DNA of 58,573 nucleotides from Colwellia sp. (lineage in GTDB: Bacteria > Pseudomonadota > Gammaproteobacteria > Enterobacterales > Alteromonadaceae): positions 1 through 58,573 of the forward strand of contig NZ_JABSOV010000018.1 in the NCBI RefSeq assembly GCF_013215345.1. Reading direction: 5' to 3'. Below the pieces are notes generated by a model. It was not told the DNA's origin. It saw nothing but the letters and a program-made list of their open reading frames with translations, and searched no databases. The position numbers were made by a program, and so were the translations under genes. Positions 20,601-51,648 of this stretch are shown piece by piece (within the stretch, counting starts at the first letter, position 1; each line of letters starts with the position of its first letter).

Positions 20601-21506
20601 ATGAACGATAAAAAACATTTAGGTCACCAAGCCAAAAAACGCTTTGGACAAAACTTCCTCCATAATGAAGCTGTTATCAGTGATATTGTCGATGCTATTA
20701 ATCCAGAGCCCGGTGAAAACCTTGTAGAAATTGGCCCTGGTTTAGGCGCATTAACTGAGCCAGTTATTGAACGAGCAGGTAAAATATCGGTAGTAGAATT
20801 AGATAGAGATCTAGCTCATAGACTGCGTCACCATCCTTTTATAGCCGATGACTTAACCATCTATGAAACAGATGCCTTGAAATTTGATTTTGCTCAGTTA
20901 GCTAGCGAAGAAAAGCCATTACGAATTTTTGGTAACTTACCTTATAACATTTCCACGCCACTAATATTTCACCTACTTACTTTCAAAGATAAAGTGAAAG
21001 ATATGCACTTTATGCTGCAAAAAGAAGTGGTAGAGCGTATGGCGGCTGGCCCTCATTGTAAAGCCTATGGTCGTTTATCAATAATGACTCAATACCAGTG
21101 CCAAGTATTCCCAGTGATGGAAATTGGTCCAGAAGCCTTTAAACCCGCACCGAAAGTTGATTCTGCCATTGTTCGGTTGATCCCGCACGAACATATTGCT
21201 AACCCTGTTAAAGATATCAAGGCCTTAAATACTATTTGTTTAGCCGCCTTTGGTCAGCGCAGAAAAACTATTCGTAATAGTTTTAAGAACTTAGTTAGCG
21301 TAGCGCAGTTAGCTGAATTAAATATTGATGCTAATTTACGCCCAGAAAACCTAAGTATTGATGAATATATAAAGCTTGCCAACTTTATTGTTGATAACCC
21401 ACCCGAGGTTGCGCCAGTAAAAGAAAAAAGACACATGTCAAAAAGCAGACTCGCTCAACGTGCTAAAAACGATTTAAATAAGGGCTCTGCGCCAGAAGCA
21501 GAGTAA
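20601..21506 (+). CDS. rsmA: 16S rRNA dimethyladenosine transferase RsmA (KsgA)
   Basis: Uses S-adenosylmethionine to dimethylate two adjacent adenines (A1518/A1519) of 16S rRNA late in 30S assembly. The 301-residue protein has [16 protein letters not shown], the SAM loop [13 protein letters not shown], and the catalytic NLPYNIST (about residues 113-120), then the C-terminal helical domain with [14 protein letters not shown]. It is about 28 residues longer than E. coli KsgA; the extra tail (from [17 protein letters not shown]) is basic then acidic. The last base of its TAA stop is the first base of the 21506-21770 repeat. apaG, which normally follows, is absent. Confidence 0.96.
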
Positions 21507-21770
21507 TACCAATTTGACTCAGTTTTTTCCCACTCAGAGCTTATCAGCGGTTTGAGAACAAATTGAATTTTTTACATTATAGTTATTTCTATATGAAAGA
21601 AATTCAGTGCGGTTATCGAGTCGCTGACAAACTCCCGAAGGGCGAGTTTAAAAGGCTGACATCCTACGTTATTGATTTTGATAAGGGAATAACCATTCTC
21701 TTCAATCAATGCCTTGCCTCTAAACCTTTTAACTCTCGCTGAGTGAAAAGAAACTAAATCAAAATGGTAT
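21506..21770. repeat. ATACC repeat family, full copy (265 bp), between rsmA and apaH
   Basis: Begins ATACCAATTTGACTCAGTTT and ends in the approximate inverted copy (AATCAAAATGGTAT); about 30 bp can be paired with roughly six mismatches. The shared core, starting CGTTATTGATTTTGATAAGG, is at 21667-21719 on the plus strand. It is flanked by an inner inverted pair, GCGAGTTTAAAAGG (21642-21655) and CCTTTTAACTCTCGC (21725-21739). There is no coding capacity beyond chance frames. The element fills the whole gap, from the last base of the rsmA stop to six bases before the apaH ATG. Confidence 0.85.
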
Positions 21771-21775
21771 AGCTT

Positions 21776-22627
21776 ATGGCGATCTATCTGGTAGGTGATA
21801 TACAAGGTTGTTTTAACGAATTAACGGCTCTGTTAGTGCAAGTTAATTTTGATGACAAGAAAGATACCCTCTACCTTGCGGGCGACTTAGTCGCTCGCGG
21901 CCCTGATTCTTTAAAAACCTTACGCTTAGTAAAGTCTCTTGGTGAAAGTGCCAAGGTTGTCTTAGGCAATCACGATTTACATCTATTAGCGGTTTATGCT
22001 GGCATTAAAAAAGCAAAAAAGTCAGATCATTTAGCGGCACTATTGGCTGCTGATGATATTGATGACTTGATGGACTGGCTCGCGGCGCAACCTTTATTAC
22101 AAAAAATACCCCAGCTTAATTCTCAAGCAGAACAGCAAAACATAACTAATGATGCCTACATGAGTCATGCGGGAATATCCCCACAATGGCAACTAGCCGA
22201 TGCCATAGAGCAAGCTCAGTTTGTCCACTCTAAACTTGCCAGTAGTGAGCGTAATACCTGGTTAGCACTAATGTATGGCGAAGAACCTAATAGTTGGCGA
22301 CAAGTAAAAAGTGAAATTGACAAGTTTCGTTTCAGTATTAATGCCTTTACCCGTATGCGCTATTGCTTTAGTGATGGTTCTCTAGAGTTTACCCAAAAAG
22401 AATCTCCTGATGATATTAATGTTAGCGGCATAGTGCCATGGTATGAGTTATCACATACTATCAAGGATACTGCTTGGGTTTTTGGTCATTGGGCTTCGTT
22501 AATGGGCCAATGTTCACACACTAATATTTATCCCTTAGATACCGGGTGTGTCTGGGGGAATCAATTGACCATGCTACGCTGGCATGATAAAAAACACTTC
22601 AGTCAAGCGGCAATACTGAGCATATAG
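21776..22627 (+). CDS. apaH: Bis(5'-nucleosyl)-tetraphosphatase, symmetrical
   Basis: Metal-dependent phosphatase that splits Ap4A into two ADP and also removes Np4 caps from RNA; cytosolic. The 283-residue protein (E. coli 280) shows the metallophosphatase motifs GDIQGC (residues 7-12), GDLVARGPDS (about 36-45), GNHDLHLL (about 63-70) and GHWASLMGQ, with the last histidine motif LDTGCVWGNQLT. It normally forms rsmA-apaG-apaH; here apaG is missing and a repeat ends six bases before the ATG. No purine-rich Shine-Dalgarno is visible upstream (AATGGTATAGCTT), so initiation may be weak or may rely on repeat structure. Confidence 0.95.
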   Translation: MAIYLVGDIQGCFNELTALLVQVNFDDKKDTLYLAGDLVARGPDSLKTLRLVKSLGESAKVVLGNHDLHLLAVYAGIKKAKKSDHLAALLAADDIDDLMDWLAAQPLLQKIPQLNSQAEQQNITNDAYMSHAGISPQWQLADAIEQAQFVHSKLASSERNTWLALMYGEEPNSWRQVKSEIDKFRFSINAFTRMRYCFSDGSLEFTQKESPDDINVSGIVPWYELSHTIKDTAWVFGHWASLMGQCSHTNIYPLDTGCVWGNQLTMLRWHDKKHFSQAAILSI

Positions 22628-22720
22628 AATAATAAAGAATTTTATATCAGATAAAAACAAAGAATCCATAGCGGATATATTTTCACTTAGTATAATGTTA
22701 ACAGTAGTTGGAAATAAAAT

Positions 22721-22747
22721 TAAATATTTCCTATTGCGCGCCGATAC
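22721..22747 (+). promoter_or_regulatory. Predicted sigma-28 (FliA) promoter of the chemoreceptor gene
   Basis: TAAATATT (22721-22728), an 11-base spacer, then GCCGATAC (22740-22747) match the flagellar sigma-28 consensus TAAAGTTT-N11-GCCGATAA at 6/8 and 7/8 with exact spacing. It lies 75 bases before the chemoreceptor start, the class of gene normally driven by this factor. A separate TATAAT (22691-22696) without a clear -35 lies further upstream. Confidence 0.65.
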
Positions 22748-22821
22748 AAGCTAAACTTGATAAATATCAAAACAAATTAACGTATTAACTAGGCAAGTAG
22801 CCTACCAATTGGGTGGATTCT

Positions 22822-24840
22822 ATGAATTTAACTGTAGCTGTAAAAATTATTGGTGGCTTTGCCATTATTTCAATTTTACTGGTAGTAATTAGTATCATAT
22901 CGCTATCGAACTTAGATACTATAAGTGAGGCCACTCAGCAACAAAATACTTTGGCAATCCCAACCCTTAAAGCCAGTAATAAACTTGCCCTTGAATTGAG
23001 CCAAATGAGTAATTTAACTTTAGAAGGTTACTATCTAACAGATCTTAATCTGTTAGCTCAACAGCTGAGAGATTATAAGAAAATCAATAGTCTTTTCTCA
23101 AAAGGATTATCAGAGCTTAAACAGATTGTTGCTACAGAGCAAAATTTGTTAGCAAACTTGGGACAGGTAGACAATCTTTCCGCTAATTTTCACCGTGCTG
23201 GCCTTGGTTTATTTAGTAGCCATAAAACAAGTATCGAACAACAGCAACAATTAATAGAAAAAGTAGATACTTTAGAAGAGCAAGCTGATGACACAGTGAT
23301 GTTACTTTTAGATTTAGCAGATCATGATTTAGCAGACACTAAACTTCAGCGCGCTATAAGTTTGAGCGAGCATTTAGAAAACCAATTTAACTCCATAGTC
23401 TCTTCCTCATTTGAATACCGAGATATCCTCGATGCAAGTACCGCCAAACTCATCGAAAGTGAACTTTCACGCAGCCTAAGTGAAGCAAACAAGTCTGTAG
23501 ACGATATCATCTCTGAATTAGATACCCATGATATCAGCGACATTTCACAGCAAGTCAGCCTTGCCTTTAACAAAATCCAAGCACTTTTATCTCGAGAAGA
23601 TGGCATTCTTGCTCATAAAACAGCGCAACTTGCCGCCAATAAAAAAGCAGCTCGTATGCTCAAACAAGAAGAGCTATCGGCTAAACAAGTTAATAGCGCT
23701 TTAGAAAAACAAATTGAGTTAGCTAATCAAACTACCATCAAAGCAAGTCAGTTGATAGAAGACGCTGTGAGTAGTGGTAATACCCAAACAACAATTATCA
23801 TGCTTATCTCAATTGTTGTCGCCCTATTTATTGCTAGAGCAACGCTTATCGGTATTACTCGTCCACTAGCTCGCGTTAATGAAATGCTTAATATTGTTGC
23901 CTCTGGTGACCTTTCAATGAAACTTGATGAAAGTGGCACTGATGAATTTGCTCAGTTATCAAGAAACTGCAACTTATTGATTGATAGTTTACGTAACCTG
24001 ATCGAAAGTATTGTTAATCGCTCCGCCCAACTGGCTGCCGCCGCAGAGCAAACATCTGCAGTTACCGCGCAAAGTACCACGGCAATTGAAGAGCAACGCA
24101 ATCAAGTAGAACAAGCCGCTTCTGCCACGACAGAAATGAGCAGTACCGCTCAAAGCGTGCTGGCAAGTGCTAATGATGCCTTGAGCGAAATAAAGCATGC
24201 CGATGACGAAGCCGAGCGTGTTAAAGTTATTTCAGCGCGAAACCGCCAGACGATAGAATTATTAGCCAGTGAGGTTGACTCAGCATCTCAGGTTATCAAT
24301 CAATTACAGCAAGACAGTGCTTCAATTGGTGGCATTTTAGATGTAATTCGTGGAATTGCCGAACAAACAAACTTACTAGCTTTGAATGCGGCCATTGAGG
24401 CAGCTCGAGCGGGTGAACAAGGTCGAGGCTTTGCCGTAGTTGCTGATGAAGTACGAACATTAGCGAGCAGAACTCAAGAGTCGACTTCAGAAATTCAAAC
24501 CATGATAGAGGCGCTACAAACCGGCGCAGGTAAAGCGGTAACGGTAATGGATGCCGGTAAAGCTAAAGCCAGTGACTGTGTCAGCCAAAGCGAAGAAGCA
24601 GATCAAGCACTAGAAGTCATTACCCATGCAGTACATGAGGCATTTGATCGCAGTACACAAATTGCTACGGCAGCCGAAGAGCAAAGTGTTGTCGCCCATG
24701 AAATTAGTGAAAACCTTGAGTCTATTGTGACTATTGCCGAGCAAACCACTGCTGGCTCGCAACAAACTGCAGCATCAAGCAGTGAGGTTGCTCGTTTAGC
24801 GGAAGAACTACAACAATCGGTGCAAGAGTTTAAATTATAA
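22822..24840 (+). CDS. Methyl-accepting chemotaxis protein
   Basis: Transmembrane chemoreceptor that controls the CheA kinase. The 672-residue protein has a first membrane segment at about residues 7-28, a long, mostly helical periplasmic region of about 290 residues (possibly a four-helix or HBM-type sensor), a second membrane segment near 318-340, HAMP (about 340-395), and the signalling hairpin with the conserved tip [20 protein letters not shown] (about 515-534) and [13 protein letters not shown]. No C-terminal CheR-binding pentapeptide is present (it ends VQEFKL). Of two starts, the ATG at 22822 has GGTGGA five bases upstream; an in-frame GTG at 22813 is less likely. The ligand is unknown. 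Confidence 0.93.
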
Positions 24841-24902
24841 GGATAAACATAAGCTGTAAGTATAATATTCTAATTTACTTGCAGCTTAAAACACACTTAT
24901 GG

Positions 24903-24930
24903 TTGACATATGACGCGCTAACTATATAAT
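24903..24930 (+). promoter_or_regulatory. Consensus sigma-70 promoter of the cold-shock gene
   Basis: TTGACA (24903-24908) and TATAAT (24925-24930) both match the sigma-70 consensus perfectly, with a 16-base spacer. Transcription would start near 24937, about 180 bases before the cold-shock gene. Confidence 0.85.
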
Positions 24931-24936
24931 GCCCCC

Positions 24937-25116
24937 AGCTTGAAGTTAGTTTATTTTTTTGTACACCATTTCGATGTTATCTCATGCTTACCTTAGATAA
25001 GATATCTGTAACACGTCCTGATTTATAAGTAATAGCAACTCTTTTTAGCAAACCCGCGAGCTACTTGCATAAGCAATTAGCAGCACAATTACTCTTAAAT
25101 ATTTATAGGATACATT
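24937..25116 (+). promoter_or_regulatory. Long 5' untranslated leader of the cold-shock gene
   Basis: About 180 nt of untranslated RNA between the predicted start site and the ATG, similar in length to the 159-nt cspA leader of E. coli, which acts as an RNA thermometer. Local inverted pairs such as CCTTAGATAAG/ATATCT could fold, but the switch cannot be modelled by eye. No coding frame was found. Confidence 0.55.
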
Positions 25117-25323
25117 ATGTCTACTACTACTGGTACAGTAAAATGGTTTAACGAAGCTAAAGGTTTTGGTTTTATCGAGCAAGAAAACGGTCCAGACGTT
25201 TTTGCTCATTTCAACGCTATCGTTGGTGACGGTTTCAAAACTCTTGCTGAAGGTCAAAAAGTTGAATTTACAGTTACTGAAGGTCAAAAAGGCCCTCAAG
25301 CTGAAAACATCGTTGCTCTTTAA
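25117..25323 (+). CDS. CspA-family cold-shock protein
   Basis: A 68-residue OB-fold protein that binds single-stranded RNA and DNA and melts RNA structure at low temperature. The RNP1 motif KGFGFIEQ (residues 16-23) and RNP2-like DVFAHF (about 29-34) are intact, after the usual [13 protein letters not shown] start. Length matches CspA-type proteins (about 70). The ATG follows ATAGGATACATT. It is a single-gene unit with its own consensus promoter, long leader and terminator. Which csp paralogue it corresponds to cannot be settled from the sequence alone. Confidence 0.96.
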
Positions 25324-25368
25324 TTAGCACTTGTTAAGTTAGCTATCAGCTAACTTACATTAGATGTT

Positions 25369-25405
25369 TGAAAAAGGACATTCCTGTAAAGGATGTCCTT
25401 TTTTA
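25369..25405 (+). terminator. Intrinsic terminator of the cold-shock gene
   Basis: AAAAAGGACAT pairs with ATGTCCTTTTT around a short inner stem (CCTGTAAAGG), ending in TTTTTT. It lies about 45 bases after the csp stop. The remaining sequence up to 25620 shows no gene or repeat. Confidence 0.85.
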
Positions 25406-25619
25406 TTGCCTTTAATTTATGCCTTTAAAAATTTAGCTCTCAAACAGATCCCTTCAATACAACTAATTAACTTAAGCTATACTCTTCTCAGTATCTGACC
25501 ACGTCTCTGTATATAGCCTTAACTACTAGGGAAAATTTTTAAGTACTTTGTAACCATACAAGATTCTAACCTCCATAATAATCTCTGCAACTTTTATTTT
25601 ATGCACTTTCTGCAGACAC

Positions 25620-25665
25620 AAAAAAGGCCAGAACTTTTGCAAGTACTAGCCTTTATAGTTTTTTA
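25620..25665 (-). terminator. Intrinsic terminator of murA (minus strand)
   Basis: Read on the minus strand, AAAGGC, an internal mismatch, ACTT-GCAA-AAGT, then GCCTTTTTT forms a stem-loop with a T-tract. It lies about 45 bases downstream of the murA stop. A second weak inverted pair (CCACTAG 25677-25683, CTAGTGG 25700-25706) lies between it and murA. Confidence 0.65.
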
Positions 25666-25710
25666 ATTAACACTGCCACTAGCGGTATTAATTAAAACCC
25701 TAGTGGATAA

Positions 25711-26985
<1,275 letters not shown>

Positions 26986-27084
26986 TTACTTAAAATGATG
27001 AAACAATATTCAGCCAGTATACACAAAAATGCCCAGCATTAAAAAGCTAGGCATTAAAAATACAATTAAGTAACAACTTAACCA

Positions 27085-27345
27085 TTAATTAAATAATTTA
27101 TCACGCTGCCATTGCGCCTTATTAAAGGTTTTCACGGTTACGGCGTGAATTGTGCCGTCTTTTATAATATCAGCTAACGGCTTAAGCACAGCTTGTTGAC
27201 GCTTGACGCGGCTTAAGTCATCAAACATATCACTCACTGCATTAATACGGCATTGTGAGCCATCAAATTTCACATGCACTTCATCAAGTTCTAGTGCGTC
27301 ATTAATCAGTTTACTTACTAATTCTTCAATTTCTTTAACTTCCAA
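27085..27345 (-). CDS. ibaG: BolA-family protein IbaG (YrbA)
   Basis: An 86-residue BolA-like protein that works with monothiol glutaredoxins in iron-sulfur handling and affects acid resistance in E. coli. The BolA fold is visible: CRINAVSDMFDDLSRVKRQQ (residues 32-51) and the C-terminal HAVTVKTFNKAQW with the conserved histidine. The position between mlaB and murA is the E. coli arrangement and identifies IbaG rather than BolA. The start ATG (27343-27345) follows a GGAGACTCCCTTGG-like context. Confidence 0.92.
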   Translation of the reverse strand: MEVKEIEELVSKLINDALELDEVHVKFDGSQCRINAVSDMFDDLSRVKRQQAVLKPLADIIKDGTIHAVTVKTFNKAQWQRDKLFN

Positions 27346-27377
27346 GGGAGTCTCCTATGTACGTTATTTTATGGTTA

Positions 27378-27680
27378 CTAATCAGATGCTAAGGGCAATA
27401 AACCGTCCACACCACTTAAACTAATTAGTTTAGTTAATTTCTCAGGAACATTACTAAAGCTTAATTCGCAGCTATGATGAGATGCCTGCTCCAAAAGGTA
27501 AAACAACCAAGCAAGTCCAGCCGTATCGGCCTTGTTCACTTGGCTTAGGTCAACGTTCACCGCACCATGGGCAAACCAGTTAACATAGGCATTTTTTTTA
27601 ATTTCGGCGACACTATGACGGGTTAATTCCCCCGCAATAGCAAGAGTACCATGATTTAGAACTATATTCGCTTTACTCAC
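27378..27680 (-). CDS. mlaB: STAS-domain protein MlaB of the phospholipid transporter
   Basis: A 100-residue cytosolic STAS-domain protein; in E. coli MlaB binds the MlaF ATPase and is needed for Mla complex stability. The central motif VDLSQVNKADTAGLAWLFYL (residues 49-68) has the conserved D-T-A-G loop, with threonine at the STAS phosphorylation position as in E. coli MlaB. It lies between mlaC (4 bases upstream) and ibaG (32 bases downstream), the standard operon order. Confidence 0.92.
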   Translation of the reverse strand: MSKANIVLNHGTLAIAGELTRHSVAEIKKNAYVNWFAHGAVNVDLSQVNKADTAGLAWLFYLLEQASHHSCELSFSNVPEKLTKLISLSGVDGLLPLASD

Positions 27681-27683
27681 GAT

Positions 27684-28469
27684 TTACCCTTGCTGTGCTT
27701 TTTTTGCAGTTGCGCCACTGTCTTTAGCTGCACGACTTTTAAATACAATGTCTCGAGTGCTTTTTCTTTTTAATAATTCAGTCACATAAGGTAGGCCCTT
27801 TTGCCTAATGATACTACCTAACTCGGCTTGCTTTGAGTCAAGTAAACTTATGCCTTCTGCCACCATATCAAATGCTTGCCACTCTTTAGTTTTTTTATTA
27901 AGTCTAACTTTGAAAGCAACATTAATATTAGCTCTACCTGGCATGATAATGCGAGTATTCACCGCAACGATTCTTTTACCCTCATAAGACTTTTCAGGGG
28001 AAAACTCCACCGCTTGATTATCATATAAAGTAAAGACTTGTGCATAAGAGCTCACTAAGTATTCACGAAAAACCGGTACAAACGCGCGACGTTCAGCGTC
28101 GGTTGTTTTCTTTAAATGCTTACCAATAACCTTAAAAGCAGAATATTTATGATTGATATAAGGCATAAGCTCTTCACGAACTATATCTTTTAGCAAATTG
28201 GGATTTGCTTGGATAGCTTGTTGCTCGGCAGCAAAGCGCTTAAAGGTCTGCTCGGCAGCACCTCGTACCATGTTATAAGGATTACTTTGGTCAACAATAA
28301 GTCGAGTAGGCTGCGAAGAGAGATTAGTAGCCTCTGCAGGTAACTTAGTTGCTACTTCTGTATTAGCCATAGCCGTATTATTCAGTAACAGGCCTAAAAC
28401 TAAGCCTGCAAAAATATTACTGTTGCGCTTACCTATATATAGCTTACTTATATTCACTAACTTATTCAT
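27684..28469 (-). CDS. mlaC: Periplasmic phospholipid-binding protein MlaC
   Basis: Shuttles phospholipid between the outer-membrane MlaA complex and the inner-membrane MlaFEDB transporter. The 261-residue precursor has a signal region ending NNTAMA (about residue 35), then the MlaC/Tgt2 domain with NPYNMVRGAAEQTF, VREELMPYINHKYSAFKVIG and WQAFDMVAEGISLLDS. The chosen ATG (28467-28469) has AAGGAAGTGGTG directly upstream; a longer frame to 28502 lacks a site. It overlaps the end of mlaD by eight bases. It is somewhat longer than E. coli MlaC (211), mainly at both ends. Confidence 0.92.
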   Translation of the reverse strand: MNKLVNISKLYIGKRNSNIFAGLVLGLLLNNTAMANTEVATKLPAEATNLSSQPTRLIVDQSNPYNMVRGAAEQTFKRFAAEQQAIQANPNLLKDIVREELMPYINHKYSAFKVIGKHLKKTTDAERRAFVPVFREYLVSSYAQVFTLYDNQAVEFSPEKSYEGKRIVAVNTRIIMPGRANINVAFKVRLNKKTKEWQAFDMVAEGISLLDSKQAELGSIIRQKGLPYVTELLKRKSTRDIVFKSRAAKDSGATAKKAQQG

Positions 28470-28935
28470 CACCACTTCCTTGGCTAAATAAAAACTGTCC
28501 AATTAACTCTTCTAATACTAAGGCTGGCTTAGTATCTTCAATGAAATCACCTGCTTGCAAAGTATCAACCGACTCATCGACAAAGCCTGGTTGCACACCT
28601 AAATATTGTTCGCCTAATAAGCCGGCAGTTAATATTGCCACAGAAGTAGCCTCTGATAACTTATTGTATTGAATATAAATATCAAGAGTGACTACGGGTG
28701 TATAGTCTTCGTCGTCTAACGATATATCGCTGACACGGCCGACAACAACGCCACCAATTTTAATCGGCGAACGTACTTTCAAACCGCCAATATTATCGAA
28801 CTTAGCAAAAAGCTGATAACTTTCACTACCCCCGCCAAGACCTGCATCTGCAACTTTTAACGACAACATTAATAAGGCAGCTATGCCTAATGCAACAAAA
28901 AAACCTACTAATAACTCTACTTTCTTAGACACCAT
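28462..28935 (-). CDS. mlaD: MCE-domain substrate-binding subunit MlaD
   Basis: Anchored in the inner membrane, it forms a hexameric ring that passes phospholipid between MlaC and MlaE. The 157-residue protein has one membrane helix (LLVGFFVALGIAALLMLSLK, residues 8-27) and an MCE domain with YQLFAKFDNIGGLKVRSPIK and GGVVVGRVSDISLD, then LLGEQYLGVQPG. The ATG at 28933-28935 (MVSKKVELL) matches family starts; an in-frame GTG at 28944 with AAGG five bases upstream is also possible. It lies 67 bases after mlaE. Confidence 0.93.
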   Translation of the reverse strand: MVSKKVELLVGFFVALGIAALLMLSLKVADAGLGGGSESYQLFAKFDNIGGLKVRSPIKIGGVVVGRVSDISLDDEDYTPVVTLDIYIQYNKLSEATSVAILTAGLLGEQYLGVQPGFVDESVDTLQAGDFIEDTKPALVLEELIGQFLFSQGSGDE

Positions 28936-29002
28936 GTCTTTCACCAACGCCTTGTAATAAAAAATTCAATATAAACATCTGACTGATTAACTATTTCCGT
29001 GA

Positions 29003-29779: not shown

Positions 29780-29834
29780 TAGTTAACGCCTCGAATTTTA
29801 CGACTTCGAATAAGGTTCATTTACTCACTATCCC

Positions 29835-30650: not shown

Positions 30651-30916
30651 TATTCAACGTCACTGTTAATTTATTGCCGCAGACCATTAGACTAAGTCCG
30701 CAATATAATTTCTTTAGTAGCCGATGATTTTACCTGAGCCATAACAATTGTTCATTAGAAATAAACCAATAACGAGGCAATAAGTGTAAAAACTCTAAGC
30801 TAATTTGTAAGAAAGTGATCGTTTTCGCTTAAAACTAAGACAAATTAATACTATTTCCCTGTTGTTGACATTATTTACTTCTTTTTTGCTCAACAACCAG
30901 CGACAATTTACTCATA
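30651..30916. other. Divergent intergenic region mlaF / CaCA exchanger
   Basis: 266 bases with no gene. It must hold the mlaF promoter (minus strand), but no clear -35/-10 pair was picked. Several long AT tracts are present. It ends where the 30917-31183 repeat begins. Confidence 0.5.
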
Positions 30917-31183
30917 ATACCAATTCGATTCAGTTTGCTCCCAACTCAGAGCTATATTAGCGAGCTTAAAACAAGAAAAATTGATTAAACATAGTCATTC
31001 TATATTTCATTAATTTTGGGCAGTTATCAGTTTGCTAATAAGCTCCTAAAGGGCGAGTTTAAAAAGGTTCATATGCTGCGTTATTGATTTTGACAAGGGA
31101 ATAACCATTCTCTGCAATCAATTTCTTGCCTCTAAACCTTTTTAATTCTCGCTGAGCGGGAAAAGACTTAGTCGACTAGGTAT
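30917..31183. repeat. ATACC repeat family, full copy (267 bp), upstream of the CaCA exchanger
   Basis: Begins ATACCAATTCGATTCAGTTT and ends GTCGACTAGGTAT, inverted with several mismatches. The core (starting CGTTATTGATTTTGACAAGG) is at 31079-31131 on the plus strand. The inner stem is GCGAGTTTAAAAAGGTT against AACCTTTTTAATTCTCGC. It ends eight bases before the Shine-Dalgarno GGAG of the next gene. Confidence 0.85.
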
Positions 31184-39509: not shown

Positions 39510-39773
39510 ATACCCGTTCCACTTGAAAGTGCAGGGTTCAGCTGGAATTATAAGTGCCTTTAGGCAAGACATTGATTGAAGATAATGGTTGCTCCCTTGT
39601 CGAAATCAATAACGTAGCATAAAGCGTTTATAAACCAGCCTTTTGAGGGAAAACTGAGCAAACCATATTCGTTGTTACATTTGTTTTTAAGGGAATAGCC
39701 ATTAACAATAAATGTGCCTTATTATGATTCGCTCAAGTTTCCTGAAACGAGCATCTTCAAGTTGAACGGGTAT
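39510..39773. repeat. ATACC repeat family, full copy (264 bp), with the core in both arms, upstream of mgtE
   Basis: Begins ATACCCGTTCCACTTGAAAG and ends CTTCAAGTTGAACGGGTAT, a good terminal inverted repeat. The core lies at 39562-39614 on the minus strand; a diverged second core occupies 39670-39720 on the plus strand (GTTTTTAAGGGAATAGCCAT), so the element is close to a long imperfect palindrome. Orientation is opposite to the other three copies. It ends 22 bases before the mgtE start. Confidence 0.82.
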
Positions 39774-41285: not shown

Positions 41286-41301
41286 TTTAGCAATAGAGGA
41301 A

Positions 41302-42663: not shown

Positions 42664-42898
42664 ATTGGTTTCTACTTTCTCTTTTCTTTTTAAGGAGTAA
42701 CAAGGTTAAAACAGTAACTTTACATATTAAGTACTGTGAACTATCGAGATTATATTAAGCTATTTTCTTGGCGCGACTAAGCTGGATACCGCTCGCCGTG
42801 ATTAAAACGCTTTTATCTCGAACAAGGTTTGACCGCAAAAGATCAACAGCCCCTATAAATTTAGTGATATAATAAGGGTAATTATTATTTATTTTACC

Positions 42899-43441: not shown

Positions 43442-43460
43442 AAGGCAAACCAGTAAGTAT

Positions 43461-43488
43461 CAGCAAGCACTATTAATAGTGCTTGCTG
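43461..43488. terminator. 28-bp perfect palindrome between darP and tldD
   Basis: CAGCAAGCACTATT (43461-43474) is followed directly by its perfect inverted copy AATAGTGCTTGCTG (43475-43488). It lies between the convergent 3' ends of darP and tldD, 19 bases after one stop and 18 before the other. There is no clear T-tract. It is probably a bidirectional terminator or 3'-end structure; a protein-binding site is possible. Confidence 0.5.
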
Positions 43489-43506
43489 AACTATTAAACT
43501 AGCTAA

Positions 43507-44952
43507 TTACTGGGTACCACCAATAGTCATCTCATCAATTTTCAGCGTCGGTTGACCGACACCAACAGGTATACTTTGGCCATCTTTACCACAGATACCA
43601 ACACCGGCATCAAGCTTTAAGTCATTACCCACCATGCTGATTCGTTTCATCGCTTCAGGACCATTACCTATCAAGGTAGCGCCTTTTACTGGTGAGGTTA
43701 TTACACCATCTTCAATTAAATACGCTTCTGAAGTGGTAAAAACAAATTTCCCAGAGGTAATATCAACCTGACCACCGGCAAAGTTTGGCGCATAAATACC
43801 TTTTTTCACTGACTTTATAATATCTTCAGGGCTAGACTCACCAGCTAACATATAAGTATTAGTCATGCGAGGCATAGGTAAATGCGCATAAGATTCACGT
43901 CGTCCATTACCTGTGGGTTTTACCCCCATTAGACCGGCATTATGTTTATCTTGCATGTAGCCTTTTAAGATACCCTTTTCGATTAAGACGTTATATTGTC
44001 CAGGTGTACCTTCATCATCTATAGTAATAGAGCCTCGACGATTAGCTAAGGTGCCATCATCAACAATGGTACAAAGCTCGGAGGTAACTTGCTGACCAAT
44101 TTTACCAGAAAAAGCCGACGAACCTTTACGGTTAAAGTCACCCTCTAAACCATGACCAACGGCCTCATGCAATAATACTCCAGGCCAACCGGCTCCCAGC
44201 ACCACTGGATAAGTACCTGCTGGGGCTTCAATGGCAACTAAATTAACTAACGCTAGTCTAACCGACTCTTCGGCATAAGCCAGGTAACGTGCTTTGTTAT
44301 CGCCAGGTTCAACTTCAAAGAAGTAACTGTAATCAGTACGTGCTCCACCTCCAGCACTTGCGCGCTCTCGTTTGCCATTTTCTTCAACTAACACTGAGCA
44401 GTTTAACCGTACTAATGGACGGATATCCGTACCATAAGTACCATCGCTGGCACTGATTAAAATAGTTTCATATACACCGGAAATACTCGCAATAACCTGT
44501 TTAACCCGACTATCAGTTTGACGCGCATGTGCCTCGATCTTGTGCAGTAAATCAATCTTTTGTTCTTGGGTTAAACTGCCAAGTGGCTCAACGGCTTGAT
44601 AAACCTGAATAGGTGATTGACGAGTAAAAGCTTTAACGGTAGCGCCTGTACCACTATCAGCAATACCTTTAGCTGCATCAGCGGCCTGTTGCAGTGCTTC
44701 AGGAGATATTTCATCCGAATATGCAAAGCCGGTCTTTTCGCCGGAAATTGCTCTTACACCAACGCCACGCTCAATATTATACGAGCCTTCTTTAACAATA
44801 CCGTCTTCTAGCACCCAAGATTCATGCTGACTCGCTTGAAAATATAAATCAGCATAATCAACTTTTCGTCCCATCATGCTTCTTAAGGTTTTTGCTAATA
44901 CTTCATCATCAATATGACTATCACTTAATAAGGATTTTTCAACACTATTCAT
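43507..44952 (-). CDS. tldD: Metalloprotease TldD
   Basis: Catalytic subunit of the TldD/TldE protease. The 481-residue length equals E. coli TldD. The zinc motif is visible in [13 protein letters not shown] (about residues 260-272; HEAVGH is HExxxH) with [18 protein letters not shown] and the downstream cysteine/histidine region. The C-terminal [20 protein letters not shown] is the family end. Upstream of it on the same strand are nit-like and yhdP; all three form one minus-strand run (gaps of 46 and -8 bases). Its partner pmbA is 844 bases away. Confidence 0.96.
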
Positions 44953-44998
44953 TAGGTATAAGCTCTACTTCTATGTTCTTTAATTATAAGCGCTGCAA

Positions 44999-45886
44999 TT
45001 AATTATTCAGCGGCGTGTTTAAAGGTGTAGTCAAAGGCATGCTTTGACGTATACGTGTTACTTCTTGTTTTTGGTATTCAACAGTAATAAAACCTTCACC
45101 CGTGGCGATACTCTGTTCAACTTCACCCCAAGGGTTAATGATCATTGAATGTCCCCAAGTTTCCCGGCCATTTTCATGAACGCCTTCTTGTCCTGCGGCA
45201 ACAATATAGACTTGGTTTTCTATCGCGCGTGCTTGCAATAATGTTTGCCAGTGTGCTTTGCCTGTTACTTTAGTAAAGGCACTGGGTACGGTAATTATCT
45301 CTGCCCCAGCTTTTACTAGCTGTTGAAATAAGTTAGGAAAGCGTAAATCGAAGCACACTGATAAACCAATGTTAGCAAATTCGGTGTTAACAACCTTTAT
45401 TTCTTTACCAGCTTGGGTATAACGCGATTCACAATAACTGTTAGTACTATCACTGACATTGACATCAAATAAGTGAATTTTATCGTATTGCCCTATTAAT
45501 TCGCCATTAGGACTAAAGACACAACTGCTGTTAGTAAATTTTTTAGCTGAAGACGTTAGAATAGGCACAGTACCTGCGACTAGGTATACCTTAAAGCGCT
45601 TAGCTAATTGTCCAAGCGCAAAACAAAGATCGTTCGCGAGTGCCGATTCTTTTGCCAAGCTTAGCTGTTCACTGTCTTTACCACCAAAGTATAAACAACA
45701 CTCGGGTAAAACCACTAAATTCTGAACCGGCTCATTAACAGTATCATCATGTTTAACTATGTTAGTACTGCCGTTTTTAGCCCTTATCGGAGGCGCGGTA
45801 ATTTTAGCAAGTAACTCAGCTATTTTAGCAAGGTTGGTGGCGACATTAGCCGCTGATGATAATTGTATCGCTGTCAATTTAACCAT
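44999..45886 (-). CDS. Carbon-nitrogen hydrolase of the nitrilase superfamily (Nit-like amidase)
   Basis: A 295-residue cytosolic enzyme. The Glu-Lys-Cys triad is visible: first part of the fold with LVVLPECCLYFGG, Lys in LIGQYDKIHLFDV (about residue 151), nucleophile Cys in IGLSVCFDLRFP (about 184), and RAIENQVYIVAAGQEG. It resembles bacterial Nit1-like omega-amidases or deaminated-glutathione amidases; the substrate is not proved. A ~25-residue charged insertion (GSTNIVKHDDTVNEPVQN) sits after the first 33 residues. The ATG at 45886 has GAGGT five bases upstream and overlaps the yhdP stop by eight bases. Confidence 0.88.
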   Translation of the reverse strand: MVKLTAIQLSSAANVATNLAKIAELLAKITAPPIRAKNGSTNIVKHDDTVNEPVQNLVVLPECCLYFGGKDSEQLSLAKESALANDLCFALGQLAKRFKVYLVAGTVPILTSSAKKFTNSSCVFSPNGELIGQYDKIHLFDVNVSDSTNSYCESRYTQAGKEIKVVNTEFANIGLSVCFDLRFPNLFQQLVKAGAEIITVPSAFTKVTGKAHWQTLLQARAIENQVYIVAAGQEGVHENGRETWGHSMIINPWGEVEQSIATGEGFITVEYQKQEVTRIRQSMPLTTPLNTPLNN

Positions 45887-48800
45887 CAATTACCTCATTG
45901 CTTATAGCTGCTAGTGGCTTATCACCCTTTGACTCATCTTGTTTTTTATCTTCCGTTGGCACTGTGCCCTTGAGGCTAATACTCTTACTTTTACGATCAA
46001 CTTCTTTGAAGTCAGGATTATCCACAGTGCCAGTTAGTTCAAATTTAAATTCAGAGATAACTTGAGACCTAACGACTTGATCAATGGCAACGCCCGCGAG
46101 AAAAGTCACTGGATTCAAAGATGTAGCTATCCAAGCAAGTACAGGTAAACTAGAGGTCAAATTCGGTTTATAAGACATATCATAAGCTAGCTCACCTGTT
46201 ACTAAGTTAGTATGCCCCGTCATAAACAAATCACCGGCAGTACCTTTCATTTCGGTATTATTGGTCGTTAACAGCCCCTGACTTAATTGATAGTCACCGG
46301 TGATATTACTGTAAAACATACCGTCACTAAAGATATCACGGAAGTCCAGCGTGAGCTTACGTACTAAAGATTGCAAACTTAGCACAGAAAAGATCTTTGC
46401 TTTATCACTGACATCCGCTAAATAGCCATCATCAAGTCGACCATTGATAGTACCGTTTAATTGACTAACATCGAAGTCATGTAGACCTCCAGCCCAGTTA
46501 AGGTTTACGTTGATTTTAGCACCACTGTCTTTAATAATTGATTCATAACCCGCGGCTTTTAATTCTGTCTCTATATCAGCCACCGATAGATTACCCGCTA
46601 ACGAGGTTATCGATTCTTGCTCGTTATGAAGCCAACTACCAGTAAGGTTTAATTTTGTTGCTCCACGTTTAGCGGTTAAGTTAGTAAACTCTATGGTTTG
46701 TTGGTCAACGCGCTTAATATTTACATCAACTTCCCCTAGGTCTACTGAACCCATAGCGCAGCTATCACAATGAAATTTTATTGGCGGAATGTTGGCAAAG
46801 ATAATATCGTTTTCCGCTTTATCTGGCTGTTTATTTAGTAAAGGCAGCTCAATCTCCGCTACTGCTTTTTTAGCTGGTGTCAGTTTTAAAAACTCAGCAT
46901 TGATATCTAAACCTTGGGCTAGCCAATCTGGATAAATTTTTATTTGGCTGCGAATTTCATTGGCATTGAGTTGTAATAGCCACCACTCTGGCTTATCTAA
47001 CAAGTTAAAAGAAACATTATTGAGTTGCTGGCCTAGTATTTGTAACTGACCAATTGAGCCTCTTATTCTTTTAGGTTTCGCTAAAAAAGGGATGGTGTCT
47101 TCTAACTCTGTAGTTGCAGTTATACTTGTGCTTATAGTGGGTTGATTAATACTGTCGAAAATATCGCTGATCAGTGGTTGCCATAATGAAAAATCAGCTT
47201 GCTCTAACTTAGTAGTTATATGAAATCCGTCACTTGCCAATGCCATAGTGCCTTGTCCCAACATCAAATTAGCACGAGTGAATGCCGTAGTGTCGTGATC
47301 TAATAAGCCCGAGAATTGCATTTTATCGCCATAATTGAGCACGACTTTAGACTGCTCCATCTGACCATTAATTTGCACCGATAAGTGATTTTCTTGTTTC
47401 TCGCTTCGATCATAAGGGGGCGGTAACAATAACTGAGTTTTGTTTAAGTCAGAATAAAAATTGGCATTGTAAGAAAAGCCACCTTGGTGGTGCTGGTGTA
47501 AGGATAAATCCCCTTGCCACGGCAGCTCACCTTGGGTATATCGTCGTAATCGCTGCGGTACATAAGCCAACCATTGTTCTTCTTGCCATAAAGCAGAAAG
47601 ATTAATATCAGTATCGTAATAATCCGTTTTATCCATGCCAGAAATATCAAGGGCAATAGGTAAGCCTTGCCAAACAAGGGTTAAATTTTTAGTACTAATT
47701 TTATCGTTACTAAAACTTAATTGACCTTTAACCTCAGTAAAATTCATCTGTGGTGTTTGCAAACTAGCTTTATTATTATCAAAGTAGATAATGCCACTTG
47801 CCAATGCTTGCTCATTATCGTTCAGTGGTAAATTTAAATGAAATTCACCACTGACCTCACCCGTTACTTTTAATTGCTCTAAGACACTACCAACGCTATC
47901 TTTAAAAGGGCTTTGATTCATCAAATCGCCAATAAAGCGTGGCTCTGTTGGTTTTATCTCTGCATCTACCGTTAAAATTTGGCCATGAGCTAAATCAGCA
48001 ATGCCTGCACGCACACCGGTTACATCCAAGCCGGTCAGTTTTCCCGCTCGACCGGTAATTAACATAGAATTATTAGTGAAGTTTAAATTAGCAACAAAGT
48101 CAGTGATGGCTGGCCAGTTTTCAACAAACTTAAACTCAGCTTTACTTAATTCAGCATCAACGACAAAAATACCACTACCATCGCTGAAAGGAAAACGACT
48201 GATAGGACCATTTATCAAGATCTGGGCATTTTCAACACGGCCAGAGACAACTGCGGAATTAAGATAGCCAACTAAGTTATCACTCATAATAGGTAAAGGT
48301 AAGTAACGGCCCACTAAGCCCGCATTAGCATTGGAGACATTAGCCAGTAGCGCTAGATTCACTTCGCCATCAAGCGGCGCCTCGACTTTAATTTGTGCCG
48401 ATAAGTTAATTTCTTTTGAAGTAAAATCAAATTTTTCAACCGTTAATGCCCAACCCTTATCATCAAATTCAGCATTGAGCTGTCCTGATAAACCTTGATA
48501 GGGAAAGGCTTGTACAAACAACTTATCAAAATCTAACTTACCCTGCTCGGCGTTAAAATCAACAGATAGATAATTGCCAACAAAACTTAGCTTGCCAGAC
48601 ACATTTTCTAAGCCCGGTATACCGTGACTAAAGTTGTTATTGAATGAGGAAAAATTTGTCAGTATTTGCAGCTCGTCATTATCTTTACGAATATGTAGAT
48701 TTTCAACTTTACCCGTTAAACTCATCTCTGCTAGTACATTACGTGTTGCTTGCTTCGCCACGATTAACGGCGCTAATTGCGCTAACATAGCAACATCTAT

Positions 48801-49841
48801 TTCGGACAGGTGTAGTGAAAAATCATCACCTTTTTTAGCTAACATAGCGGTAAATTGTTGAGGTACTTGTTCGTTAAACTGTAATGATAACGGCGTACTA
48901 TAAAGCTTAAAACTTTGCTCTGCCTTACCTTTAACCAGTAATACTTGCCCGTTATCTAACACTAGCTTTTGCTTTTTTTGGTCAAATAACCAATTCATGC
49001 TGCTTTGTGCGATATCTATTTGTAAGCGATCATACTCACCGTTATTGACACGTAACCAAGCGGAAAAATTAATATCGGTTTTAGTTTTATCATCTTCAAG
49101 TACTAAAACACTATCTAACCAGGGAGTTATATCGATATGATTAGCTTGTAAGTAAACTTGTCCAGATAAAGTACGGCCCTGCTCTCCTTGCAAATCTACC
49201 TTCAACTGTAAATTATTCGAACTTAAGCCATTTAAGACCACACTGCCTTGTGCTTGATGACGTCCATCGGTATTTAACCAATCTAATTGATTAAGGCCAA
49301 TGTTACGGGCAATGGCCTTATTTCGAACCGTCAATTGGCTTTCACGAATAGAAAAGCGTTTTATACTATGCAGAAAAATATTACTTATAACTTCAATATC
49401 ATTGGCTTCATTTTTTGTATCAACGATCTCGGGGATATTGTCTTCTTTTGCTGATAGCCACAAGCTTTGGGAGATATCAACTTGAGCACCGGAAAGAATA
49501 AGGTTTTTAGTGATAAGGCTTTGTTCTGTCAGAGTTCGCCAAAAATCGACTTGCAATTCAAGTCGTTTAATAAAGACAGAAGCCCTTTCAGTTTCAAGTA
49601 TTTGCACATCACCAATGACAAGAATAGGCCCTGACCGCTGCCAAGTCATACTTAAGCTGCCAATGGAAATATTCGTTTGCGATATTTCGTTTAAATAATC
49701 TTGCAGAGGGATCTTGTAATGCTGCACATAAGGTAAAAATAAACGAAAGGCACTAATTAATACCGCTAACAGCACCAATAAGATGGCAACTGTTTTATAA
49801 AGGCGATTTAGCCAACGATTAGAAGTGCTTACAATACTCAT
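45879..49841 (-). CDS. yhdP: AsmA-like inner-membrane protein YhdP
   Basis: A large bridge-like protein of the TamB/YhdP/YdbH group that moves phospholipid to the outer membrane. The 1320-residue protein (E. coli 1266) has one N-terminal membrane helix (VAILLVLLAVLISAFRLFLP, about residues 18-37), a long periplasmic beta-rich body with repeated DUF3971-like modules, and a C-terminal AsmA_2 region with LFMTGHTNLVTGELAYDMSY and PVLAWIATSLNPVTFLAGVA. It lies between rng and the nitrilase gene, the conserved order in E. coli (rng-yhdP-tldD). Function of this homologue is inferred. Confidence 0.95.
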   Translation of the reverse strand: MSIVSTSNRWLNRLYKTVAILLVLLAVLISAFRLFLPYVQHYKIPLQDYLNEISQTNISIGSLSMTWQRSGPILVIGDVQILETERASVFIKRLELQVDFWRTLTEQSLITKNLILSGAQVDISQSLWLSAKEDNIPEIVDTKNEANDIEVISNIFLHSIKRFSIRESQLTVRNKAIARNIGLNQLDWLNTDGRHQAQGSVVLNGLSSNNLQLKVDLQGEQGRTLSGQVYLQANHIDITPWLDSVLVLEDDKTKTDINFSAWLRVNNGEYDRLQIDIAQSSMNWLFDQKKQKLVLDNGQVLLVKGKAEQSFKLYSTPLSLQFNEQVPQQFTAMLAKKGDDFSLHLSEIDVAMLAQLAPLIVAKQATRNVLAEMSLTGKVENLHIRKDNDELQILTNFSSFNNNFSHGIPGLENVSGKLSFVGNYLSVDFNAEQGKLDFDKLFVQAFPYQGLSGQLNAEFDDKGWALTVEKFDFTSKEINLSAQIKVEAPLDGEVNLALLANVSNANAGLVGRYLPLPIMSDNLVGYLNSAVVSGRVENAQILINGPISRFPFSDGSGIFVVDAELSKAEFKFVENWPAITDFVANLNFTNNSMLITGRAGKLTGLDVTGVRAGIADLAHGQILTVDAEIKPTEPRFIGDLMNQSPFKDSVGSVLEQLKVTGEVSGEFHLNLPLNDNEQALASGIIYFDNNKASLQTPQMNFTEVKGQLSFSNDKISTKNLTLVWQGLPIALDISGMDKTDYYDTDINLSALWQEEQWLAYVPQRLRRYTQGELPWQGDLSLHQHHQGGFSYNANFYSDLNKTQLLLPPPYDRSEKQENHLSVQINGQMEQSKVVLNYGDKMQFSGLLDHDTTAFTRANLMLGQGTMALASDGFHITTKLEQADFSLWQPLISDIFDSINQPTISTSITATTELEDTIPFLAKPKRIRGSIGQLQILGQQLNNVSFNLLDKPEWWLLQLNANEIRSQIKIYPDWLAQGLDINAEFLKLTPAKKAVAEIELPLLNKQPDKAENDIIFANIPPIKFHCDSCAMGSVDLGEVDVNIKRVDQQTIEFTNLTAKRGATKLNLTGSWLHNEQESITSLAGNLSVADIETELKAAGYESIIKDSGAKINVNLNWAGGLHDFDVSQLNGTINGRLDDGYLADVSDKAKIFSVLSLQSLVRKLTLDFRDIFSDGMFYSNITGDYQLSQGLLTTNNTEMKGTAGDLFMTGHTNLVTGELAYDMSYKPNLTSSLPVLAWIATSLNPVTFLAGVAIDQVVRSQVISEFKFELTGTVDNPDFKEVDRKSKSISLKGTVPTEDKKQDESKGDKPLAAISNEVIDG

Positions 49842-49890
49842 TAAAGCTTAGATAGTCCTATATTTGTTATGTTGTAATCGTGCTGGGGCA

Positions 49891-51348
49891 TTACATCATA
49901 ACAACGTCAAATTGTTCCTGATTATACATGGGTTCGGCTTGTACTTTAATCACCTTACCAATAAAAACTTCAACTTCAGCTAAGTTATGGAATTCATCAT
50001 TAACCAAAGACTCACTAACCGCACTTGAAGCATAGACAGTGAATTTATCTGCGTCATGGGCACGGTTTACCCGCACGATTTCTCTAAGGACTTCAAAGCA
50101 AACTGTTTCTACTGTTTTAAGGTGGCCACGGCCAGTACAAAGTGGACATTCACCACACAATACATGTTCTAAGCTTTCGCGGGTTCGTTGCCTTGTCATC
50201 TCAACTAAACCAAGGGCTGAGAAACCATGTAGGCTGTATTTTACTTTATCTTTACTCATCGCCGTATCTAGGCTGTGTAATACCCGACGTTTATGATCTT
50301 CATTGTGCATATCGATAAAATCGACAATGATAATACCACCGAGGTTTCTTAGCCTTAGCTGCCTTGCAATAACTTGAGTCGCTTCAATATTGGTACTAAA
50401 AATAGTATCCGCTAAGTTACGATGGCCAACAAAAGCGCCGGTATTTATATCTATGGTAGTCATAGCTTCGGTTTGATCTATGATCAAGTAGCCACCCGAT
50501 TTAAGCTCTATTTTACGATGCAATGCTCGCTGAATTTCGTTCTCGACAGAAAACAAGTCAAAAATAGGACGTTCACCTGGGTAATATTCTAACAGTGGCG
50601 TCAATTCAGGGACAAATTCTTTGGTAAAAACCTCCAACTCTTGGTAAGTAAGATTAGAGTCAACCCGAATGCGTTCTAATTCAATACCAACAAAATCTCG
50701 TAGCACACGAAATGACAATGACAAATCTTGATATAAAGGTAACTTGGTTTGTTTACGTTGTTTACGGGTTAATACTTTTTGCCATACTCTGCGTAAGAAC
50801 TCGGCATCATGTTGTAGCTCAAGCTCGCCGGCACCTTCACCAGCGGTTCTGACGATAAAGCCTTGTTGCTCATCACAATAGGGGCTAACAATGTCTTTTA
50901 GTCGTTCACGCTCTTTCTCATCTTCAATGCGTAATGAAATACCGGCATGTTGAGAATGAGGCATCAACACTAAATAACGTGAAGCTATGGTTATATCTGT
51001 AGTTAATCGAGCGCCTTTCGAGCCAAGCGGATCTTTAACCACTTGCACCATAATTTTCTGCCCTTCGTGCACTAAAGAGCGAATATCTGCTACTTGCTCA
51101 TTATCTTCATTTAAAATAAGTTTACTTTTAATATCAGAAGCGTGCAAAAACGCCGCTTTTTCTAAATTAATATCAATAAAAGCGGCTTGCATACCCGGTA
51201 AAACACGAATCACTTTACCTAAATAAACATTGCCAACAATGCCACGCTTGCCTTGACGCTCAATATGCACTTCTTGCAGTGAACCATTTTCAACCAAAGC
51301 AACACGTGTTTCACTAGGAGTAACATTAATTAATAACTCGGCACTCAT
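49891..51348 (-). CDS. rng: Ribonuclease G
   Basis: Endoribonuclease that matures 16S rRNA 5' ends and cleaves some mRNAs. The 485-residue protein (E. coli 489) has an S1-type RNA-binding domain (GIVGNVYLGKVIRVLPGMQA, about residues 34-53), the catalytic metal-binding aspartates in TEAMTTIDINTGAFVG and IIIVDFIDM (about 296-353), and the zinc-link cysteines CGECPLCTGRG (about 405-415). It lacks the long C-terminal scaffold of RNase E. It follows maf in the same direction; a repeat lies between. Confidence 0.97.
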   Translation of the reverse strand: MSAELLINVTPSETRVALVENGSLQEVHIERQGKRGIVGNVYLGKVIRVLPGMQAAFIDINLEKAAFLHASDIKSKLILNEDNEQVADIRSLVHEGQKIMVQVVKDPLGSKGARLTTDITIASRYLVLMPHSQHAGISLRIEDEKERERLKDIVSPYCDEQQGFIVRTAGEGAGELELQHDAEFLRRVWQKVLTRKQRKQTKLPLYQDLSLSFRVLRDFVGIELERIRVDSNLTYQELEVFTKEFVPELTPLLEYYPGERPIFDLFSVENEIQRALHRKIELKSGGYLIIDQTEAMTTIDINTGAFVGHRNLADTIFSTNIEATQVIARQLRLRNLGGIIIVDFIDMHNEDHKRRVLHSLDTAMSKDKVKYSLHGFSALGLVEMTRQRTRESLEHVLCGECPLCTGRGHLKTVETVCFEVLREIVRVNRAHDADKFTVYASSAVSESLVNDEFHNLAEVEVFIGKVIKVQAEPMYNQEQFDVVMM

Positions 51349-51381
51349 ATATAACCCTTACTTCAATAAATTATTTGTATT

Positions 51382-51648
51382 ATACCATTCCGTATAAAGA
51401 AGTGATTACTTAGAACGACATGGGCGACATTAGAACAATCAAAATAGGCGTAGTTATAGTTATTCTACATCAAGCCTATTTTGTGACGTTATCATGGTGT
51501 TCCATGTGCTCCCATAGGGCGAGTTTTAAAGGCTTATATACTGCGTTATTGATTTTGATAAGGGAAATAACCATTGCCTACAATCAATGCCTTGCCTATA
51601 AGCCTTTAAACTCTCGCTAAGTGATCACTTTCTCATACGGATTGGTAT
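51382..51648. repeat. ATACC repeat family, full copy (267 bp), between maf and rng
   Basis: Begins ATACCATTCCGTATAAAGAA and ends with the inverted copy (CTTTCTCATACGGATTGGTAT); about 33 bp of the terminal repeats pair well, the best of the four copies. The core is at 51544-51597 on the plus strand. The inner stem pairs TTAAAGGCTTATA with TATAAGCCTTTAAAC (51597-51611). On the maf side it supplies the last ten codons and the stop of maf; on the rng side it ends 34 bases before the start. Confidence 0.88.

Follow-up and report, generated by a model that had tools for sequence, protein, structure and literature searches.

What are the short repeats that recur at almost constant length along one contig of Colwellia sp., and what maintains them while most of their letters diverge? 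We addressed this question in contig NZ_JABSOV010000018.1 of assembly GCF_013215345.1, analyzed as a single stretch of 58,573 nucleotides (hereafter, the window). The original prediction, made from the sequence alone, had described four elements there with ATACC...GGTAT ends and a common core, and had offered two readings, mobilization by a transposase or selection on the fold. Its coordinates and lengths match the sequence, and the ends are present on all four elements: copy 1 (w1) at 21506-21770 (265 bp), copy 2 (w2) at 30917-31183 (267 bp), copy 3 (w3) at 39510-39773 (264 bp), and copy 4 (w4) at 51382-51648 (267 bp). The core is likewise found in all four, with one amendment concerning orientation, as copy 3 lies on the minus strand and copies 1, 2, and 4 on the plus strand. 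Copy 3 belongs to a class with ATACCC ends and the other three to a class with ATACCA ends. Overall, the comparisons described below suggest a family of miniature inverted-repeat transposable elements (MITEs) of cold-sea bacteria, whose ATACCA class is probably moved in trans by an IS630-type transposase and whose interior is a conserved three-way junction. Both offered readings thus gained support: mobilization from empty sites, target duplications, and dispersed near-identical copies, and selection on the fold from compensatory changes.

Target duplications and empty sites

Colwellia sp. 12G3 (genome G029) carries ten 266-bp copies, 97.7-100% identical, at ten different places. All ten are flanked by identical TAA or TTA triplets, as are six of six longer copies in the same genome; this is a fresh burst of near-identical copies. 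For a broader flank analysis, the core search covered all 114 fetched loci and two more, and 199 of 249 copies, with unique flanks, were retained. Depending on the analysis, at least 17, 19, or 20 of 30 end bases had to match for a copy to be kept, so that the samples lean towards intact ends. The 199 copies fall into the two end classes, ATACCA (148 copies) and ATACCC (51 copies).

In the ATACCA class, the 3-bp flanks are identical in 90 of 148 copies (TTA in 44 and TAA in 42), compared with 43.5 ± 4.8 after shuffling, and none of 1000 shuffles reached as high a count. The middle flank base agrees in 115 of the 148. A TA duplication plus one base would look identical to a 3-bp TNA duplication in most copies; the rare identical flanks TCA/TCA (two copies) and TGA/TGA (one copy) favor a true 3-bp TNA duplication. 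In the ATACCC class, 50 of 51 copies have a T before and an A after the element, with no other flank identity prominent; this is the setting that a TA target would produce. For an ATACCC copy of genome G032, the empty sites in the relatives G061 and G031 read TG and not the expected TA, so the target rule of this class is not proven.

Target duplications and empty sites in related strains, which the original prediction had proposed to compare, are both present for the ATACCA class. For example, relative G009 is empty at the sites of two copies, retaining a single TTA at one (L124; 95% identity over 319 bases) and a single TAA at the other (L122; 93% identity). Each of the four window sites also occurs without the element in at least one relative. 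The site of copy 1 is empty in G019 (...gagTAGctt) and filled in G034, G035, and G029, and that of copy 2 is empty in G006 and G032 and filled in G034 and G035. At the site of copy 3, the element is absent from G034, where the junction has diverged, and the flanks of copy 4 are contiguous in G034 (97% identical), G035, G001, and G019, three of which were aligned. Judged by its precise insertion, inverted ends, and empty sites, the family is a non-autonomous bacterial MITE.

A probable IS630-type partner for one end class

The proposal that an insertion sequence (IS) with similar ends might exist held for the ATACCA class, clearly for copies 1 and 2 and weakly for copy 4, and failed for the ATACCC class of copy 3. 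On alignment, about 30 bp of the ATACCA ends are similar to the ends of IS630-family ISs of about 1.1 kb (DDE_3, two frames) from other Colwellia. DDE_3 (IS630) genes occur in 15 of 39 genomes and Y1_Tnp genes in 27 of 39. TACC-type inverted ends were flagged at five of 30 DDE_3 loci, two of these being copies of one IS of genome G010, and at none of 30 DDE_Tnp_1 or 30 Y1_Tnp loci. From a second scan asking for such ends we accepted eight of the 30 DDE_3 loci (L381, L382, L384, L385, L391, L397, L399, and L403), with ATACC ends at IS distance; the rows of three further DDE_3 loci were judged spurious.

Genome G010, which is complete, contains a 1094-bp IS with ATACCAATTCCGATAATT ends, seen in seven of the nine stretches fetched. 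The two frames of this IS score 99.6 bits (just below the cut-off of 100) and 147.9 bits against NCBIfam IS630, and the second also matches Pfam DDE_3. The IS ends agree with the nearest family end at 17-20 of the 25 bases after ATACC, against a shuffled mean of 12-13, and 0-2 of 300 shuffles were as good. Conversely, when the ends of the window copies were scored against nine IS ends (25 bases each, 2000 shuffles), copy 1 matched at 16 and 16 bases (2 and 12 shuffles as good) and copy 2 at 17 and 15 (0 and 3 shuffles as good). At two of six plasmid loci, one in Vibrio and one in Aeromonas, IS630 relatives with ATACCAAT ends lie between TCA/TCA flanks, a 3-bp TNA duplication. Duplication of the TA dinucleotide is canonical for IS630; the ATACCA class has the 3-bp TNA duplication of these two plasmid relatives, and the IS630 copies of G010 are mixed.

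Several observations weigh against an IS630-type partner, or against the 3-bp duplication. The ends of copy 4 are weakly similar to IS630 ends (14 and 14 of 25; 64 and 20 of 2000 shuffles as good), and those of copy 3 are no better than shuffles (8 of 25; 1250 and 1529 of 2000). The triplets flanking copy 1 are unlike each other, TAA (21504-21506) and TAG (21770-21772), and its empty site reads TAG, which a TA duplication fits equally. A third plasmid IS630 locus has complementary flanks, and ends of the ATACCAAT type are missing at three of the six plasmid loci. Among the 3-bp flanks of 15 IS630 copies (seven from G010, five from other Colwellia, and three from plasmids), eight are identical, six complementary, and one neither.

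Moreover, DDE_3 was not found in the genome of the window (a draft, 95.5% complete), 12G3, G032, G034, G036, or G023; the absence is weak evidence where these genomes are drafts, and G032 and G036 are single contigs. No IS with the long ends was found in 12G3, where 14 unpaired ends among 82 end matches were read up to 420 bases inward: eight look truncated, two belong to whole copies whose other end has diverged, and four are cut by a contig end, leaving room for a hidden IS. Similarly, no IS with ATACCC ends appeared among the 100 of 105 end matches listed for G032; for two plus ends there, a minus end lies at a distance of 2.2 and 3.6 kb, but both of these minus ends already pair with a nearer partner.

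Other transposases were considered and discarded. The DDE_Tnp_1 ISs of G029, G032, and G036 have no TACC ends in nine loci (two of them without any inverted ends), consistent with the 30 loci scanned, and DDE_Tnp_4 was present in none of seven genomes. Separately, we observed IS630 copies lying between complementary triplets (TTA/TAA, TGA/TCA, or TAA/TTA) at L451, L452, L453, L456, L399, and L465.

A conserved three-way junction

All four window copies fold as an end stem with two arms, forming a three-way junction, and each beat all 200 dinucleotide-preserving shuffles (z -5.2 to -9.1). In copy 1, the terminal inverted repeats span 21506-21537 (plus strand) and 21739-21770 (minus strand). Hairpin arm 1 (21537-21634, plus strand) varies in its letters and retains its pairing, and hairpin arm 2 (21641-21740, plus strand) contains the core, a near-invariant stretch of 52 bp by column entropy (21667-21718, plus strand). 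We folded 19 representatives, 18 with a mutual similarity score below 0.80 together with copy 2. RNAalifold returned 82 pairs with 92.4% of cells paired, and 64 of the 82 pairs have changes on both sides. None of 500 shuffles reached any of five measures, and slid structures were 35-43% paired. Pairing of the ends is expected of a transposon; here, both arms pair too.

The core is the most conserved part of the element, its mean column entropy being 0.36 bit (columns 163-217), whereas the left end has 1.08 and arm 1 has 1.14. It includes a match to WATCAANNNNTTR, which we take to be the consensus of integration host factor (IHF). The consensus is matched exactly by 171 of 199 copies, and each of the four window copies has it, at 21704-21716 (plus) in copy 1, 31116-31128 (plus) in copy 2, 39565-39577 (minus) in copy 3, and 51582-51594 (plus) in copy 4; these are four of 16 matches in the whole window. 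Selection for IHF binding was rejected as an explanation, because the motif's four free positions show about the same conservation as its fixed ones, leaving a consensus match only.

We also compared G-T with A-C mismatches, whose imbalance would mark the strand under constraint. A first count (182 of the 199 copies) gave 395:51 in arm 2, a skew attributable to how the structure had been derived: once pairs had to be found from both strands and to show a Watson-Crick majority, the ratio was 30:52, and RNA-level selection on arm 2 was rejected. The final test used such pairs in 65 non-redundant copies below 90% identity. The ends were even (9:8 pairs), as was arm 2 (13:14), and arm 1 was skewed (21:4, p 0.0009), its pairs 75-90 and 76-89 running clearly in the opposite mismatch direction. 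We tentatively suggest that arm 1 may be under an RNA or single-strand constraint.

Taken together, an IS630 transposase, resident or transient, would cut and paste the ATACCA elements in trans. The interior may be retained because it helps the element, through IHF or another protein on the core or through a folded single strand, which may aid transposition or spare the host transcript. The two end classes would then let one kind of interior use different transposases.

Family size, modules, and derivatives

The likeness of the four copies, which the original prediction had aligned by eye, goes beyond chance, as seen in their folds and in the 45 blastn rows that copy 1 gives in its own genome. 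Combining three blastn queries, we recovered at least 71 distinct places in the 4.24-Mb draft genome, a lower bound since the best 40 candidates per query were scored, and 36 of them matched over at least 255 bp. The core, too, extends beyond these four loci, to the rest of the genome, the genus, and other genera. Family matches were found in 39 of 61 genomes, namely 37 of 37 of the genus (own genome included) and two of 24 others of the order. A core pattern scan of named genomes matched at least 114 stretches, and the 80 listed are, by title, 65 from Colwellia, ten from Shewanella (S. olleyana and S. aestuarii), two from Alteromonadaceae, and one each from Pseudocolwellia, Thalassotalea, and Catenovulum. 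One family match lies on a Pseudoalteromonas megaplasmid, and none was found in phages (by blastn) or in viral contigs (by exact pattern).

The constant length proposed from four copies is a feature of the family: within a search range of 250-330 bp, 183 of the 199 copies with unique flanks measure 259-269 bp, eight measure 275-279 bp, and eight at least 300 bp. Of 118 located copies, 114 pass a length of 255-330 bp, at least 17 of 30 matching end bases, and a core score; 95 of the 118 entered the counts.

Departures from this length take several forms. A 48-bp double-hairpin insert yields a form of about 314 bp, and several copies have a TACC...GGTA mini-insert in arm 2, which varies among orthologues of copy 2. 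Deletion derivatives measure 42-180 bp; in G032 some keep just the ends (42-67 bp) and others mainly one arm. Regarding the modules themselves, elements that differ in their ends (L140-L145, L027, L414, and L415) carry in their arms a 48-bp two-hairpin module (GCTGCATGGATGCAGC and a GCAGGAGC stem), as if the module itself were exchanged. The mini-palindrome TACCTAATAAAAGGTA, or a close form, occurs at one place of arm 2 (L026, L027, L033, L038, L342, and L343), and its ends are the element's own TACC/GGTA. The 42-67 bp palindromes L405-L408 of G032 hold little beyond two ATACCC ends and may be deletion products or minimal mobile units. A separate multi-copy repeat holding ATACCCGTTTCATTAAGTTTGTG, with many matches in genomes of the genus, lies in the right flank of L129 and does not belong to the family under study.

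Neighboring genes and coding potential

Gene context was testable for 158 of the 199 copies (600 bp of flank required), 137 of which are intergenic. The stop codon of a KsgA-like (rRNA adenine dimethylase) gene contains the start of copy 1, which is followed by a calcineurin-like phosphoesterase gene. Copy 2 lies upstream of a Na/Ca exchanger gene, copy 3 upstream of an mgtE-type gene, and copy 4 between Maf-like and RNase E/G genes. The end of copy 4 (window 51617-51648) supplies the Maf-like gene with its stop codon and new C-terminal residues: the protein ends in ...GFIGAI followed by HAK, HTK, or NAK in three relatives and in ...GFIGAINTNPYEKVIT with copy 4.

Nothing clearly contradicts the view that no copy encodes a protein. 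Frames of at least 25 amino acids were listed in copies 1 and 3, and those present are short (59 and 77 amino acids in copy 1, 26-42 amino acids in copy 3). A frame crossing the core (e.g., window 21667-21718) reads VIDFDKGITILFNQCLA-like in most copies. In the same 65 non-redundant copies, this frame is open across its 17 codons in 63, the whole open stretch having a median of 40 codons, and its variation by codon position is 0.33, 0.30, and 0.38 bit. As third positions are hardly more variable than the others and the median stretch is short, coding is not clearly indicated; we rejected a peptide from the core, and the frame is probably not coding.

Alternative explanations

Other accounts explain part of these observations. 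The elements might be structured RNAs useful to the host, in a 3' untranslated region or between cistrons, spread by transposition and kept, for instance, for transcript stability or processing. The excess of G-T over A-C in 21 of 25 informative pairs of arm 1 looks as if the canonical strand acted as RNA, stop codons lie nearer to insertions (30 of 128 adjacent stops within 10 bp) than starts do (nine of 146), and copies 1 and 4 lie between genes of one strand. However, a TAA target alone favors stop codons, the mismatch asymmetry is missing from the ends and arm 2, and the sites are polymorphic among relatives. An orientation preference was rejected, with 41 copies oriented with and 37 against two same-strand neighbors. 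Nor did any Rfam family match the window at the gathering threshold, copy 1 giving chance-level matches at a lax threshold. We regard this account as quite improbable. Covariation could also arise without selection on structure, if template switching at quasi-palindromes copied mutations from one arm to the other; the end stem indeed pairs without wobble asymmetry, and the deletion derivatives show mutable hairpins. Yet the pairing spans three separate regions in sequences mostly less than 80% alike, and unpaired core positions are conserved as well, making this explanation unlikely. A REPIN/BIME-like element, mobilized by a hairpin-recognizing HUH transposase of the RAYT type, would account for two hairpin arms and for the resemblance of arm 1 to the reverse complement of arm 2 in ATACCC copies (mean z 3.0 in 25 copies, against 0.7 in ATACCA copies); an origin of arm 1 as an inverted duplicate of arm 2 was rejected, as it would hold only for the ATACCC copies. 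Y1_Tnp genes are common, as noted above, and one such row (G001:C156:306829-307077), outside the 30 loci fetched, adjoins element L032 (306577-306842); the element seems to have inserted into the gene. Neither target duplications nor long inverted ends, though, are features of HUH transposition, and the 3-bp target duplications disfavor it here. Furthermore, Y1_Tnp is absent from 12 of 39 genomes, including G034, G035, G006, G015, and G061, and no core (at up to five substitutions) was found in 30 fetched Y1_Tnp loci, so that we find this account hardly credible.

The ATACCC class poses a narrower question, on which we consider the balance even: does another transposase, one with a TA target, move the class of copy 3, so that two families share one kind of interior? 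The T and A bordering 50 of 51 copies, the dissimilarity of copy 3 ends to IS630 ends, and an arm 1 that tracks end class with one change on its tree all speak for it. However, arm 2 nearly tracks end class too (three changes, on a poorly resolved tree), no transposase with ATACCC ends was found, and the empty sites of one copy read TG. A broader proposal, which we hold to be doubtful though tenable, is that the structured interior is a genus-wide parasite with different ends riding different transposases, one from an IS630 subgroup that duplicates 3 bp (TNA) and another with a TA target. Its core would bind a protein, one arm would be selected as folded RNA or single-stranded DNA, and it would spread even in genomes without a detectable transposase of either kind. 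The reading that we prefer remains a MITE family with an ATACCA class served by an IS630-type transposase. It describes a large, recently active family, tied for one end class to a transposase family and with an interior held by abundant compensatory change. This makes testable the role of a MITE interior and how one interior acquires different ends. The family also matters for annotation and assembly, as it occupies at least 71 places in a single genome, including stop codons within operons.

Comparison with known systems

We found no description of such a family in Colwellia in the open-licence literature, a scope that lies outside ISfinder and most subscription journals; the one paper naming both Colwellia and miniature inverted-repeat elements concerns Thiomargarita (PMC4853749). 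The sequence features suggest a new family of a known kind, the MITE, unusual in its conserved Y-shaped fold, near-invariant core, and two end classes, and an earlier description is possible.

A repeat of 127 bp with TATACCC...GGGTATA ends, possibly RSA/BEE95, occurs in 401 plasmid-collection records (189 Salmonella, 94 Klebsiella, and 73 Escherichia), with no annotated feature under the 12 matches listed. This enterobacterial repeat has similar outer ends and a strong fold, but the one copy folded is a single hairpin with no three-way junction.

According to a review, it is for the most part unproven how bacterial MITEs are moved, and the usual description is of a plain stem (PMC2229807). The same review presents RUP of Streptococcus pneumoniae as short non-coding repeats with ends like those of the IS630-Spn1 transposon (PMC2229807). 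RUP measures 107 bp and has a TA target, whereas the Colwellia family measures 265 bp and has a three-way junction, a 3-bp TNA duplication in its main class, and two end classes. Correia/NEMIS of Neisseria appears there as a MITE that codes for no protein and has both terminal inverted repeats and an IHF site (PMC2229807); it differs in length (107/155 bp), ends, and host, and the IHF site of the Colwellia family is a consensus match only. The CIR repeats of Caulobacter and Brucella have an RNA model with two long hairpin arms and are described there without terminal inverted repeats (PMC2229807). Their arms are joined by a linker, whereas the Colwellia arms are closed by the end stem. YPAL/RU-2 of Yersinia, a structured mobile repeat that abounds between genes, likewise has both empty and filled sites (PMC2229807); it is given 168 bp, internal inverted repeats, no TA ends, and duplications of 3-26 bp (PMC2229807, PMC2759123). 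Compared by eye, its different sequence and non-TA ends led us to reject it as the closest relative. Finally, the IS630 ISs of Colwellia, Vibrio, and Aeromonas are like the ATACCA class in their ATACCA ends and 3-bp TNA flanks (eight of 15 copies), and differ from it in being autonomous, about 1.1 kb long, and equipped with a transposase gene.

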